Below, piece by piece: positions 16,931 to 20,648 of a stretch of DNA of 35,533 bases. Source of the stretch: Pelagibacterales bacterium SAG-MED28 (GTDB lineage Bacteria; Pseudomonadota; Alphaproteobacteria; Pelagibacterales; Pelagibacteraceae); assembly GCA_014653835.1 (NCBI GenBank), contig JACWDY010000010.1, positions 1 through 35,533 of the forward strand, given 5' to 3'. A program made the translations under genes and the position numbers. The notes beneath the pieces are model-generated. The model saw only the letters and a list, made by a program, of their open reading frames with translations. It was not told the origin of the DNA and made no database searches. Every line of letters starts with the position of its first letter. Positions within the stretch are counted from its first letter, which is position 1.

Positions 16931-17007
16931 GACTCTCTAGCACTAAAAGACTCTTTTTTTTTCTAAAATGGTTTGACCATGGATTCAATTTAAGGTTGAA
17001 TCTAAAA
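16931..17007 (+). promoter_or_regulatory. ccrM control region with four GANTC sites and a perfect inverted repeat
   Basis: This 77-base gap contains four copies of GANTC, the sequence methylated by CcrM: GACTC at 16931 and 16949 (both within GACTCT), GATTC at 16982 and GAATC at 16998. The last two lie in a perfect inverted repeat, GATTCAA (16982-16988) and TTGAATC (16996-17002), with a seven-base loop TTTAAGG that holds the best Shine-Dalgarno-like bases. A second small palindrome, ATGGT-TTG-ACCAT, occupies 16968-16980, and TAAAAT at 16964-16969 could be a -10 box. In Caulobacter, GANTC methylation in the ccrM leader represses ccrM; the same feedback is inferred here. Confidence 0.7.
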
Positions 17008-18078
17008 ATGTCAAAAATTTTTAACAGTATTGTTAATGGCGATTGCCTTTCTGAAATAAAAAAAGTTCCCGATAAAACTTTTGACTTAGTTTTTGCCGAC
17101 CCTCCCTACAACATGCAAATTGGTGAGTCTTTAACAAGACCTGATGCTAGCAAAGTAAATGGAGTTGATGACAAGTGGGATCAATTTAATAGTTTTAAAC
17201 ATTATGACGATTTTTGTAAGTCCTGGTTAAAAGAATGTAAAAGAATATTAAAAGATAATGGAAGTATCTGGGTTATAGGTTCTTACCATAATATTTTTAG
17301 ACTAGGGTATCATTTGCAAAATTTAAATTACTGGATTCTCAATGATGTTATATGGAGAAAGAATAATCCTATGCCGAATTTTAGAGGTACAAGATTTACT
17401 AACGCTCATGAAACTTTAATTTGGGCCTCAAAAAATAAAAAATCAAAATACACTTTCAATTATCAATCATTAAAATGTTTAAATGATGATTTGCAAATGA
17501 GATCTGATTGGATGCTTCCAATTTGTAACGGTAAAGAGCGATTGAAGAAAAATGGTAAAAAAGTTCATTCGACACAAAAGCCAGAGGCTCTTATGCATCG
17601 AATTATTTTAGCTTCCTCAAATAAAGGTGATGCCATCTTTGATCCTTTTTTAGGCACTGGAACTACAGCAGTTGTTGCTAAAAAGTTGGGTAGAAAATAT
17701 TTTGGAATTGAAAGAGACAAAAAATATTTTAAGGCCGCTAATGCTCGAATAAAGAAAGCTAAAGTTATCGAGGAAAACTATTTAGATACTATCCAAAACA
17801 ATAAATCAAAACCTAGAATTCCTTTTGGCTCATTAGTCGAATTAGGGATACTAAAACCTGGAACCGTTTTATTTGATCCTAAAAAAAAATTTAATGCCAA
17901 AATTATGGTAGATGGGAGTATCAAACATAAAGAGTCTGAAGGTTCTATTCATAAAGTAGCAGCAAAAATAATGGGAACTGAAAGTTATAATGGATGGACT
18001 TACTGGCATTGTAACATAGGCGGCTCATTAGTGTTAATTGATAATTTAAGACAGAGGTTTCTCAATAAAGCAGGTTAA
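17008..18078 (+). CDS. ccrM: CcrM-type DNA adenine methyltransferase (GANTC)
   Basis: Beta-class N6-adenine methyltransferase expected to methylate GANTC and, in alphaproteobacteria, to mark replication state in the cell cycle. I use the ATG at 17008, giving 356 residues, close to the 358 of Caulobacter CcrM; the in-frame TTG at 16996 falls in the arm of an inverted repeat. Motif IV DPPY is at residues 31-34, and the SAM-binding FDPFLGTGTTAVVAKK is at about 211-226, the beta order. The C-terminal 90 residues (IPFGSLVELGILKPGTVLF to GGSLVLIDNLRQRF) form the RAMA domain shared by CcrM and M.HinfI. A nuclease-like gene follows after three bases, unusual for a normally solitary enzyme. Confidence 0.92.
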   Translation: MSKIFNSIVNGDCLSEIKKVPDKTFDLVFADPPYNMQIGESLTRPDASKVNGVDDKWDQFNSFKHYDDFCKSWLKECKRILKDNGSIWVIGSYHNIFRLGYHLQNLNYWILNDVIWRKNNPMPNFRGTRFTNAHETLIWASKNKKSKYTFNYQSLKCLNDDLQMRSDWMLPICNGKERLKKNGKKVHSTQKPEALMHRIILASSNKGDAIFDPFLGTGTTAVVAKKLGRKYFGIERDKKYFKAANARIKKAKVIEENYLDTIQNNKSKPRIPFGSLVELGILKPGTVLFDPKKKFNAKIMVDGSIKHKESEGSIHKVAAKIMGTESYNGWTYWHCNIGGSLVLIDNLRQRFLNKAG

Positions 18079-18081
18079 AAA

Positions 18082-18825
18082 ATGTCTAAAAGTTTTGACA
18101 TAAAAAAACTATGTGATGAAAGTTTAGATGAATTATTCTCCAAAGAATATTTTGAAAGTAGAATTAAAAGAAAAGAACTTAAAAATAACGCAGAGCCACT
18201 TTATTCCGACTTAGACAGAAGAATTGCATTTATAGTACATGCAGTAACTATTAGGAGCGGAATAATCCTTGAAAAAATTTATTATAATCAAATTAAAAAT
18301 TGCTGCCTGCATTTAGATGTTTGGTCTGAAGAGAAATTTAAAATTTCTAAACATGCTATGCAATTAGCATCTGATCAAGACAATAAAGATGTTATAAATA
18401 CGGATTTACCATACGGTGAAACTTATAAGATTGGAAAGAAAAGAAAGAAAACAAGACAAATAGATCTATTAACTTATGATAAAAGCAAAAAAACTCTTAA
18501 CTCATACGAAATCAAACGTGGTGGTGGCCATCATGACAGTGAAAAACAAGAAAAAATTATAGAGAATCTCATAGCAGTAAAAATGTTATTAAAAGACTAC
18601 GGTAAAAATGAAAAAAATCTCGAAGTAAAAAAATATAAAAGCTTCATTATTTCTCATATGAATCAGGAATTGTTTTCTCCAAATTATAGATTTTTACAAG
18701 TAAATGGCGATGAGGTTGATAAGCATTTTAATTCAAAAATCAAAGTTCATATAGATAAAGATTATGATTATTTTGTTTCAGAATTTAAAAAAAGATTTAC
18801 AAAATTAAAGCTTGAAGCTGTTTAA
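18082..18825 (+). CDS. PD-(D/E)XK nuclease-like protein, candidate restriction endonuclease
   Basis: I do not recognise a named family for this 247-residue protein. It has a PD-(D/E)XK active-site pattern: an upstream acidic helix (ILEKIYYNQ, Glu64), then RQIDLLTYDK with Asp128, then SYEIKRGGGHHD with Glu143 and Lys145, a D-x14-E-x-K spacing seen in many restriction and repair nucleases. The chain is lysine-rich, with no signal peptide or membrane segment. It starts three bases after ccrM, so the two are almost surely co-expressed, and its stop abuts the convergent MT-A70 gene with no gap. The context suggests a nuclease paired with GANTC methylation, as HinfI is with M.HinfI. A repair nuclease, or a protein with no nuclease activity, remains possible. 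Confidence 0.6.
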   Translation: MSKSFDIKKLCDESLDELFSKEYFESRIKRKELKNNAEPLYSDLDRRIAFIVHAVTIRSGIILEKIYYNQIKNCCLHLDVWSEEKFKISKHAMQLASDQDNKDVINTDLPYGETYKIGKKRKKTRQIDLLTYDKSKKTLNSYEIKRGGGHHDSEKQEKIIENLIAVKMLLKDYGKNEKNLEVKKYKSFIISHMNQELFSPNYRFLQVNGDEVDKHFNSKIKVHIDKDYDYFVSEFKKRFTKLKLEAV

Positions 18826-19458
18826 TTAGCTAATTAATTTTAGTTGCTCCTTAGTTTCAAGCCATTTGGACGGCCTTTTTCTAGTTTTAACTTCTTTTTT
18901 ATTATCAAATAAACCAACTTGGTCCCCCCAAGAGTCCCAATTTAATTTTGTTTTGCGTGCAAATAATTCTAGGTAAGGACCTTGCACTAATTTTTCAATT
19001 CTTTCATAAGTTTGTTCCGGCTTTCGACTGTGCTCTCTTCTTTTATCTATTATTAATCTTTTCACGTCTTTTCCAACTCTTTTTGGATTTCCAATTGTAC
19101 CCATTATACATTGTTCGACATTAGCTCTAGTCCAATAACCAAGGCCAGTAAAAAAATCTTTCTCTGCTGAAAGTTTATTTAAATCAACTTTTGTATTTGT
19201 CTTTGCCCAATAAAAAGCTACAGTTTTGAATTCAAAGCCCCAACATTTCATTAAATCTAATCCTTGATCAAGCATTGGATCTGTTACCCACATAAATAAA
19301 GCGCAATCTTTATCTGCATACCTTTTAATATTTAATTTTTTTAGGTCAGCTAACGTCAAGCAGTCGTAATGAGAAATTGCGTTTCTTCCCTCACCTTTTT
19401 CACTAAAATTTTTAAATCTCCAGGGTGGATCAGCGTAAATTGCTTTGTATTTTTTCAT
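18826..19458 (-). CDS. MT-A70 family DNA adenine methyltransferase
   Basis: 210-residue gamma-type N6-adenine methyltransferase of the MT-A70 fold. Motif IV is DPPW at residues 10-13 (IYADPPWRFKNF). It continues with CALFMWVTDPMLDQGLDLM, the AFYWAKTN segment, GYWTRANVEQCIMG and a C-terminal YLELFARKTKLNWDSWGDQVG, all typical of bacterial and phage members. Such proteins are often accessory and phage-associated. Its recognition sequence cannot be read from the protein. It is co-directional with mutY and the FAD monooxygenase, 59 bases downstream, and convergent with the nuclease-like gene with abutting stop codons. A GANTC site (GAATC, 19462-19466) lies four bases before its start codon. Confidence 0.88.
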   Translation of the reverse strand: MKKYKAIYADPPWRFKNFSEKGEGRNAISHYDCLTLADLKKLNIKRYADKDCALFMWVTDPMLDQGLDLMKCWGFEFKTVAFYWAKTNTKVDLNKLSAEKDFFTGLGYWTRANVEQCIMGTIGNPKRVGKDVKRLIIDKRREHSRKPEQTYERIEKLVQGPYLELFARKTKLNWDSWGDQVGLFDNKKEVKTRKRPSKWLETKEQLKLIS

Positions 19459-19517
19459 ATCGAATCACTGAACACTTTATCATATGAACAAAATAGGAAC
19501 AAAAAAAATAAGATTTT

Positions 19518-20648
19518 TTAATTTTTATACACCGGATTTAAATAAGCTTTAATAAATGATTTGCGCCTTGTCAAAAACTTTAAAAAAAAATTTCTTATTT
19601 TTTGCATCAATGAATTTGAAAAATGAAATGCAAAGAAATTAAAGTTTGATCTTTTTCTGACAATTTTTGCTCTTTTAGATCTTAATTCAAAATAAGTGTC
19701 CGAGACTAATTTATTTTCCTTTAATAAATTAAATATTTCATAGGCACTCTCTATCGACTGCCCAGCACCTTGCGCTAAAGTTGGTAAAAATCCGTTAAAA
19801 GCATCACCAATATAGAAAACTTTTTTATTAGATGAGGGAAGGATTTTTGGAGTGAAATAAAGTGGCCAAGATTTAATCTCATTATCAAAAATAATTTTTA
19901 ATTTAGGGTTTTGTTTTAAAACCAAATTTGTAATTAATTGTTTAGTGTTGTCAGGATCAAATTTTTTACATCTCATAATACAAACCAAGTTTAGCTCTTT
20001 TTTTTTATTGATAGGGTAAAGTACGAGGTGACTTTTACTTCCTAGCATTAAACTTATATTTTCATCACTAATATTAAGCTCAGATTTTGATTTTAAAATA
20101 ACTCTTGCCGCTATTGCCTTCTTAAATATAGGCTCATTTTTTTTCTTTTCAAAAAATGATCTTGTATTAGAAAATATCCCATCTGCTGCAAAAACAAAAT
20201 CTACAAGGTCATTAGTATTGTCATCAAACTTTATTAAAATTTTATCTTTTAATTCTGAAACTTCTTTTATTTTTTTTCCAAATCTTAAATGTTGAGTATA
20301 AATATCTTCTTTAAGAAACTCTATTAAAGTTGATCTTTGTAAAGTAGTATATTTTGTTTCCTCGTTATTAAATTTAGATAAATCTAAATCACATATTTTC
20401 TCATTTTGAATATTATAAAAATCTAGTGTTTTTGGATTAAATAATTTCTCATTATTAATTTTTTTAAAGTCTATCTCATTTAAAATTTTAATACTGTTTG
20501 TAGCCAATTGAATTCCATAACCTTCTTCGAGAGATAAACTTTCTTCTCTTTCATAAATCATAAATTCGTGATCAGTAAATTTTTTTAAGAAATTTGCTAG
20601 AGTAAGTCCTGCGATCCCAGCTCCGATTATTGCTAATTTTTTTTTCAT
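19518..20648 (-). CDS. FAD-dependent aromatic-ring monooxygenase (PHBH/NahG fold)
   Basis: 376-residue flavoprotein hydroxylase. The FAD-binding dinucleotide fold opens with AIIGAGIAGLTLANFLKK (residues 5-22). The DG motif is FVFAADGIFSNTR, and the second FAD motif is FYIGDAFNGFLPTLAQGAGQSIESA, in which the usual GDAAH is GDAFN. The GAGQxIExA ending is closer to salicylate or 3-hydroxybenzoate hydroxylases than to UbiH. It lacks the N-terminal membrane signal of lipid-modifying members but ends in a basic, aromatic C-terminus. The start overlaps the mutY stop (TAATG). Substrate unknown: an aromatic acid or a ubiquinone precursor are both possible. Confidence 0.75.
   Translation of the reverse strand: MKKKLAIIGAGIAGLTLANFLKKFTDHEFMIYEREESLSLEEGYGIQLATNSIKILNEIDFKKINNEKLFNPKTLDFYNIQNEKICDLDLSKFNNEETKYTTLQRSTLIEFLKEDIYTQHLRFGKKIKEVSELKDKILIKFDDNTNDLVDFVFAADGIFSNTRSFFEKKKNEPIFKKAIAARVILKSKSELNISDENISLMLGSKSHLVLYPINKKKELNLVCIMRCKKFDPDNTKQLITNLVLKQNPKLKIIFDNEIKSWPLYFTPKILPSSNKKVFYIGDAFNGFLPTLAQGAGQSIESAYEIFNLLKENKLVSDTYFELRSKRAKIVRKRSNFNFFAFHFSNSLMQKIRNFFLKFLTRRKSFIKAYLNPVYKN

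Follow-up and report, generated by a model that had tools for sequence, protein, structure and literature searches.

A probable Type II-like restriction-modification pair behind the core ccrM gene of two SAR11 genomes, with a LexA-type box before its methyltransferase

When a nuclease-like gene lies between two methyltransferase genes, which of them, if either, is its partner? The question is posed by a 35,533-nt stretch of SAR11 DNA (contig JACWDY010000010.1 of Pelagibacterales bacterium SAG-MED28; hereafter the window, with positions counted along the whole stretch), in which the gene for the GANTC adenine methyltransferase CcrM is followed by a nuclease-like open reading frame (ORF) of 247 codons and then, on the opposite strand, by a gene of the MT-A70 family of adenine methyltransferases. 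The original prediction joined the three into one possible restriction-modification module and proposed CcrM as the antidote of the nuclease. We keep the nuclease-like fold and the restriction-modification module and part with the role given to CcrM: in the reading that we favor, at a probability of about 0.68, the nuclease and the MT-A70 protein form a two-gene Type II-like restriction-modification pair in a slot behind a core ccrM, and CcrM is not a partner.

The arrangement on which that prediction was built was borne out in its coordinates (Table 1). The nuclease ORF starts with ATG three bases past the end of the ccrM stop codon (seven bases in L004, the equivalent locus of the only other carrier; L and G numbers denote loci and genomes), runs in the same direction as ccrM in both carriers, and carries Asp128, Glu143 and Lys145 where these had been placed. 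The MT-A70 gene converges on it so that the two stop codons abut at 18825/18826, and the slot between ccrM and the FAD-monooxygenase-like gene fad contains no third gene.

Table 1. Features of the ccrM locus in the window, and the MT-A70 remnant of SAR11 genome G029
Feature	Position	Strand	Basis
GATTC-N11-GAATC pair, two CcrM target sites, upstream of ccrM	16982-17002	+	Sequence
ccrM, core host gene for the GANTC adenine methyltransferase, marking the insertion point (ATG 17008)	17008-18078	+	Pfam, NCBIfam
Putative PD-(D/E)XK restriction endonuclease, 247 aa, D128/E143/K145 (ATG 18082)	18082-18825	+	Family alignment, structure model
MT-A70 family adenine methyltransferase, probable cognate methyltransferase	18826-19458	-	Pfam, neighborhoods, tree
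GAATC (GANTC) directly upstream of the MT-A70 start, the same in L004	19462-19466		Sequence
LexA (SOS) box GTTC-N7-GTTC upstream of MT-A70	19486-19500	-	Within 31 bp (19474-19504) that L004 shares without change
fad, which by eye resembles an FAD-monooxygenase gene; bounds the insertion slot on its far side	19518-20648	-	Comparison of ccrM-to-fad gaps
MT-A70 remnant in G029	L042 4568-4659 (same place as L025 1364-1455)		

We found that ccrM is a core gene and that the nuclease and MT-A70 genes are an accessory pair present in two SAR11 genomes. CcrM matches the NCBIfam CcrM model (E 5e-171; 568 bits, under the model's 830-bit cut-off), has the Pfam N6_N4_Mtase domain and a C-terminal RAMA domain, and was matched in 175 of 197 genomes of the SAR11 family, including 75 of the 77 good ones. 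The nuclease ORF was matched in three of the 197, namely this genome and two chance matches (L002 and L003, E about 1e-4), which overlap ordinary housekeeping ORFs and were rejected as relatives. Within the genus it was matched in two of 169 genomes, this one and the uncultured Pelagibacteraceae genome AG-912-A04 (G1175, the source of L004), which holds the nearest relative. The window's MT-A70 was matched in two of the 197 family genomes, the second match being only 36% identical. SAR11 genome G171 carries a second, distant MT-A70 (33-36% identical; L047 4444-4962) that does not stand beside ccrM in the stretch read.

The order udg-rnhB-ccrM-fad-mutY was seen in nine of 11 further SAR11 loci fetched at length, both G029 loci being those without fad. 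In a survey of 29 other SAR11 ccrM loci, which were the best ccrM matches and overlap those 11, the slot was empty in 28, with 3-21 bp between the matched ends and no match to the pair. The exception, G029, belongs to another SAR11 genus and has the decayed 5' end of an MT-A70 gene behind ccrM in the same orientation as in the window; residues 1-31 are recognizable in two frames (75% and 81% identical), and the place shows no exact LexA box and no trace of the nuclease. G029 is a metagenome-assembled genome (MAG); its contamination is 4%, and ccrM occurs in it twice. The remnant points to an earlier presence in the slot, in another SAR11 genus, of MT-A70 at least.

Comparison of the two carriers indicates that both genes encode real and constrained proteins. 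The nuclease is 84.6% identical between the window and L004 and MT-A70 95.2%, compared to 87.6% for CcrM and 45-70% for the products of the other flanking genes. Identical residues use the same codon in 64% of cases in the nuclease gene and 63% in the MT-A70 gene (52-60% in the others of the 11 genes compared). Since protein identity is high despite low codon agreement, both proteins are under purifying selection, and 85% protein identity at 64% codon agreement argues that the 247-codon ORF is a real gene. Identity at four-fold sites was 0.50 and 0.53 for the pair, the highest among the 11 genes, with 0.26-0.47 for the others. Nothing in these values points to the pair having passed recently from one carrier to the other; silent sites have diverged a little less in the pair than in its neighbors, which makes an old recombination between the two lineages possible.

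We then asked what the 247-residue protein is. Pfam, NCBIfam and PADLOC give no match to it at E values up to 1, PHROG only weak ones (best E 0.006), and sequence searches of the PDB no significant one. Its family likewise matched no restriction-enzyme family of Pfam, NCBIfam or PADLOC, in comparisons that included no R.HinfI sequence, and is thus a nuclease family without a counterpart in those three collections. Profile searches found relatives in eight of 384 other alphaproteobacterial genomes, and further ones came from three Pseudomonadota genomes (labelled as the same class), one genome of a single order, two plasmid records and eight viral contigs. The viral contigs were found by an alignment scan, three single-protein scans of viral contigs having found none, and no relative was found in phage records. 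Asp128 and Lys145 are invariant in all nine aligned family members.

The fold of this protein is likely that of the PD-(D/E)XK nucleases, judging from a structure model built on the nine sequences. VIA-align, which compared only chains ranked by Foldseek, listed 26 entries with Z of at least 5, of which 25 are, by their known folds, PD-(D/E)XK nucleases. They comprise six R2 endonuclease entries, EcoO109I, AvaII, two McrBC entries and 15 endonucleases of bunya- and hantaviruses, several entries being copies of one protein. The 50 chains on the Foldseek list itself included BstEII, MunI, McrBC, RecBCD and Shedu, at E values of 0.3 to 2.7.

To identify the partner of the nuclease, we read the neighborhoods of its relatives at 22 loci outside SAR11 in stretches of 3.3-16.5 kb each, to which the negatives reported here for these loci apply. 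A methyltransferase gene adjoins the nuclease gene in nine of them, in five cases convergently as in the window (L059, L062, L063, L080 and L085). It is an MT-A70 gene in three (L060, L083 and L084) and in six (L059, L061, L062, L063, L080 and L085) a gene recognized by the motifs of its product, which starts with DFPTPPWAT or similar, continues with EPACG and NPPF, and belongs to a family without a Pfam entry. This NPPF protein is a probable adenine-type methyltransferase, going by these motifs, and aligns (E 3e-5) with the product of a putative DNA methyltransferase gene of Rhizobium phage RHph_TM3_3_3. Seven loci (L062, L063 and L086-L090) have a GHKL-ATPase gene and a helicase-Mrr gene beside the nuclease, called by Pfam or PADLOC in L062, L063 and L086 and by likeness in the remaining ones; a Vsr gene is also present in L087-L089 and a C5-methyltransferase gene in L063. 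At L064 a type I system lies about 0.8 kb from the nuclease relative, and L049 has CBASS genes.

None of the 22 loci contains a relative of CcrM in the stretch read. At locus level this agrees with one of the outcomes that the original prediction named as refuting it, relatives of the nuclease being seen for the most part apart from a GANTC methyltransferase, and it bears directly on the account in which the nuclease cuts unmethylated GANTC, CcrM is the protecting methyltransferase and antidote, and MT-A70 is incidental. The position of the nuclease directly behind ccrM, co-directional in both carriers, speaks for that account, as does the expectation that CcrM methylates nearly all GANTC sites, which would make such a nuclease tolerable; an MT-A70 gene repressed by LexA might, moreover, leave protection to something else. 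GANTC is also depleted in about half of 33 pelagiphages, and the portion of the source available offers no SAR11 restriction-modification system to explain this (PMC9516812). The same portion reports none in SAR11 by 2022, a few common defense systems in some genomes excepted, and an excerpt of another report mentions one orphan GANTC methyltransferase in a Pelagibacter MAG (PMC12570018). However, SAR11 genomes with ccrM almost always lack the nuclease, and the GANTC sites that stay hemimethylated for long behind the replication fork would be a hazard for a GANTC cutter unless they were spared. Because the nuclease family elsewhere was not seen with CcrM, and has another methyltransferase adjacent in nine of 22 loci, we regard the CcrM account as the least probable of those weighed here and the partnership first proposed between CcrM and the nuclease as probably wrong.

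A restriction-modification pair of nuclease and MT-A70 finds further support in the methyltransferase. The window's MT-A70 matches Pfam PF05063 (E 2e-28; 99.8 bits versus a cut-off of 23.9), has the motif DPPW at residues 10-13, and has METTL3 as its top-ranked solved relative. It is 58-59% identical to the MT-A70 proteins of the similar phage contigs L083 and L084 (59% to L083), whereas the best matches listed reach 48.4% among 348 phage records and 49.5% among 196 plasmid records, with all identities below 60%. In a tree of 18 sequences, from which L036 (G171) was left out, four of the five nuclease-linked MT-A70s share a clade with support of 95/93, and all five lie to the same side of a weakly supported branch (57/89). 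These data can be set against the possibility that the two genes are chance neighbors, a solitary MT-A70 of the phage type and an unrelated nuclease that arrived together. Relatives of the MT-A70 occur in 348 phage records and relatives of the nuclease in none, which speaks for chance; but the nuclease family also stands beside MT-A70 in L060, L083 and L084 (the last two being close to each other), the nuclease-linked MT-A70s group as described, and none of the 13 unlinked MT-A70s fetched, out of 544 records, has a nuclease relative within 2 kb. We therefore consider a chance association improbable.

The region upstream of the MT-A70 gene suggests how the pair may be controlled. Within the 31-bp block shared with L004 lies GAACAAAATAGGAAC, which conforms to GTTC-N7-GTTC, given as the alphaproteobacterial LexA motif in the available parts of PMC3323433 and PMC12907096. 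The genome holds 13 exact sites, ten within ORFs (one of which, L115, is also 158 bases before another ORF) and three before ORFs, these being umuD, lexA and MT-A70, at distances of 4, 4 and about 28 bases, respectively. The lexA and umuD genes of this genome pass their NCBIfam cut-offs, and LexA has the Pfam LexA DNA-binding domain. The umuD box, GAACAAAAYARGAAC, recurs in AG-912-A04 and in all 30 of the loci fetched, which were the best-matching ones from the 156 genomes in which umuD or lexA was matched. In both carriers the MT-A70 box conforms to it, and a LexA-type site precedes lexA in seven of seven fetched loci. The claim that this is a LexA box rests on its position and its likeness to the lexA and umuD sites, not on enrichment of the pattern, and on these grounds the MT-A70 gene looks to be SOS-controlled. 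Infection by pelagiphage HTVC027P raises recA, lexA, umuD and umuC in SAR11, according to the accessible text of PMC12753301, and a LexA-boxed MT-A70 gene would therefore be expected to respond to infection. A search of titles and abstract openings in open-licence literature found no report of a LexA-controlled restriction methyltransferase. As an aside, the exact upstream sites (L105, L108 and L109) would make up a very small candidate SOS regulon.

The same box invites a different account, in which MT-A70 is induced by SOS to mark DNA or RNA while damage is being repaired and the nuclease works with it in repair, much as Vsr does with Dcm. It would explain why MT-A70 has its LexA box in common with lexA and umuD, and it accords with the presence of some nuclease relatives in GHKL-ATPase and helicase clusters, of which three include a Vsr gene, a kind of cluster tied to MutL-like ATPases in the part of PMC2292703 at hand. 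A precedent comes from Caulobacter, where the available sections of PMC12907096 describe a Vsr-like nuclease of the PD-(D/E)XK kind that has a LexA box and is functionally connected with a methyltransferase. Yet no LexA box was seen beside the nuclease or a methyltransferase in the loci outside SAR11, few SAR11 genomes have the pair and some of its relatives are carried by phages, which is not what one expects of a repair enzyme, and the only exact LexA site in the window is that of MT-A70, with none before the nuclease. This account is the best placed of the three rivals and still, in our judgment, unlikely.

How might a restriction-modification pair work in this setting? We rest that reading on what is directly established, namely the anatomy of the locus, the accessory distribution, the conservation of the two proteins, the methyltransferase linkage in part of the nuclease family and the LexA box that MT-A70 shares with lexA and umuD; from these we infer that nuclease and methyltransferase are active and have one target, that the nuclease is co-transcribed with ccrM, and that SOS induces MT-A70 and so closes a feedback loop. 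MT-A70 would methylate an adenine in this target, and the nuclease would cut the target where the mark is missing, chiefly in phage DNA entering the cell. The nuclease would be made from the ccrM transcript, CcrM serving as a neighbor and promoter donor; it is probably made with CcrM because it starts three (window) or seven (L004) bases after ccrM and because the GATTC-N11-GAATC pair lies upstream. That pair, which possibly reflects autoregulation by CcrM, is also present in L004, L037 and L044, with L040 having the second site alone (four of five SAR11 loci read). MT-A70 would be transcribed towards the nuclease from its own region with the LexA box, and its basal level would protect the chromosome. 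DNA damage, accidental self-cutting included, would inactivate LexA and so yield more of the MT-A70 antidote, dispensing with the controller gene of other restriction systems. Taken as a whole, this scheme has the balance of the pair set by host circuits without a controller protein: the ccrM transcript, cell-cycle-timed in relatives, drives the nuclease, the antidote belongs to the LexA regulon, and self-cutting leads through SOS to antidote and relief of restriction. We offer it tentatively, at well under even odds.

Several results weigh against a restriction-modification pair. The candidate active site is incompletely conserved: the original prediction's Asp128 and Lys145 hold in all nine aligned sequences, but position 143 is Glu in only six of them, Asn in two and Ser in one. 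When viral relatives are aligned, the four from GHKL-ATPase clusters have Asn at this position. L080 has Asn there too, and all six aligned nucleases from the seven ATPase-bearing loci have the Asn143 variant. Asn at this position is compatible with activity in some enzymes, such as MspI. The structure model is mediocre (mean predicted local distance difference test score, pLDDT, 66; predicted template modeling score, pTM, 0.65; an earlier model from two sequences had a pLDDT of 36), Foldseek returned no match to it at an E value of 0.001 or better, and the top VIA-align Z of 6.2 is middling by the tool's own grade, so that the structural check supports resemblance mainly to PD-(D/E)XK nucleases at limited model quality.

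The neighborhoods and trees bring further difficulties. No adjacent methyltransferase of the kinds sought was found in 13 of the 22 loci outside SAR11; five of these are viral loci in GHKL-ATPase/helicase clusters (three of whose contigs end at the nuclease) and eight are more divergent relatives elsewhere. In L065, L066 and L072-L075 neither CcrM nor MT-A70 nor the NPPF protein was found to have a relative, other kinds of methyltransferase not having been sought there. Pfam finds nothing in three of four NPPF proteins and in the fourth an MTS match below cut-off (E 4e-4), and PADLOC gives weak mad2 matches in two of two (E 8e-5 and 4e-4). In the nuclease tree, members linked to MT-A70 and those linked otherwise do not fall into separate groups, and a long branch leads to the SAR11 nucleases.

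Regulation is a third area of doubt. It would be strange to entrust protection to a methyltransferase that LexA represses, unless enough of it is made without induction. Across the genome the LexA pattern shows no enrichment (13 sites versus 14 for a reversed control), and its absence beside the relatives outside SAR11, noted above, counts here as well. A scan for the sigma-70 consensus found 11 promoter-like sites versus 12.6 in shuffles, and hence did no better than these; it placed no minus-strand site at the MT-A70 start and no plus-strand site in ccrM. A scan for consensus terminators was uninformative.

Two features of the divergent nuclease relatives may be recorded separately. Some lie near a large uncharacterized protein (L065 5415-7544, L066 5390-7519 and L075 9156-10646), and the one in L075 is also near a gene that by eye resembles an FtsH-type ATPase.

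If the scheme were true, the most abundant marine bacteria would possess a damage-sensing, self-limiting restriction system, and a LexA-controlled antidote would be an unusual answer to the problem of self-damage that restriction systems face. A conserved pair would also show that some SAR11 lineages keep restriction-modification and would define an undescribed nuclease family.

Among known systems, the MunI-like Type II systems combine an MT-A70-like methyltransferase with a PD-(D/E)XK nuclease. The SAR11 pair resembles them in joining a candidate D...ExK nuclease to an abutting methyltransferase of the MT-A70 class and in its patchy accessory distribution; it differs in that its nuclease has no sequence relation to the restriction-enzyme families in Pfam, NCBIfam and PADLOC and lies directly behind ccrM, and in the LexA box upstream of its methyltransferase. 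The methyltransferase of HinfI, a GANTC system, shares the architecture of CcrM. It has been placed in the CcrM tree in a paper according to whose available part the only ccrM homologs with an endonuclease gene nearby are those of several Epsilon- and Gammaproteobacteria (PMC3973325). Unlike the HinfI methyltransferase, the ccrM of SAR11 is core and is not linked to this nuclease family in the 22 loci outside SAR11. Lactococcus plasmid pSRQ700 has a CcrM-type methyltransferase beside a restriction enzyme, in a set of two methyltransferases and a restriction enzyme. GHKL-ATPase clusters of the MORC/paraMORC kind are described, in the portion of PMC2292703 available, as restriction systems with uncharacterized restriction-fold nucleases. 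Relatives of the nuclease lie beside GHKL-ATPase and helicase-Mrr genes in L062, L063 and L086-L090, which we liken to the clusters of that paper by gene context, whereas the SAR11 pair has neither ATPase nor helicase. The closest regulatory parallel is with ScmA and VsrA of Caulobacter, a methyltransferase and a PD-(D/E)XK nuclease whose imbalance triggers SOS, as set out in the accessible text of PMC12907096. A LexA box is involved in both cases; in Caulobacter it belongs to the nuclease gene and the two genes are unlinked, whereas in SAR11 it lies upstream of the methyltransferase and the genes abut.

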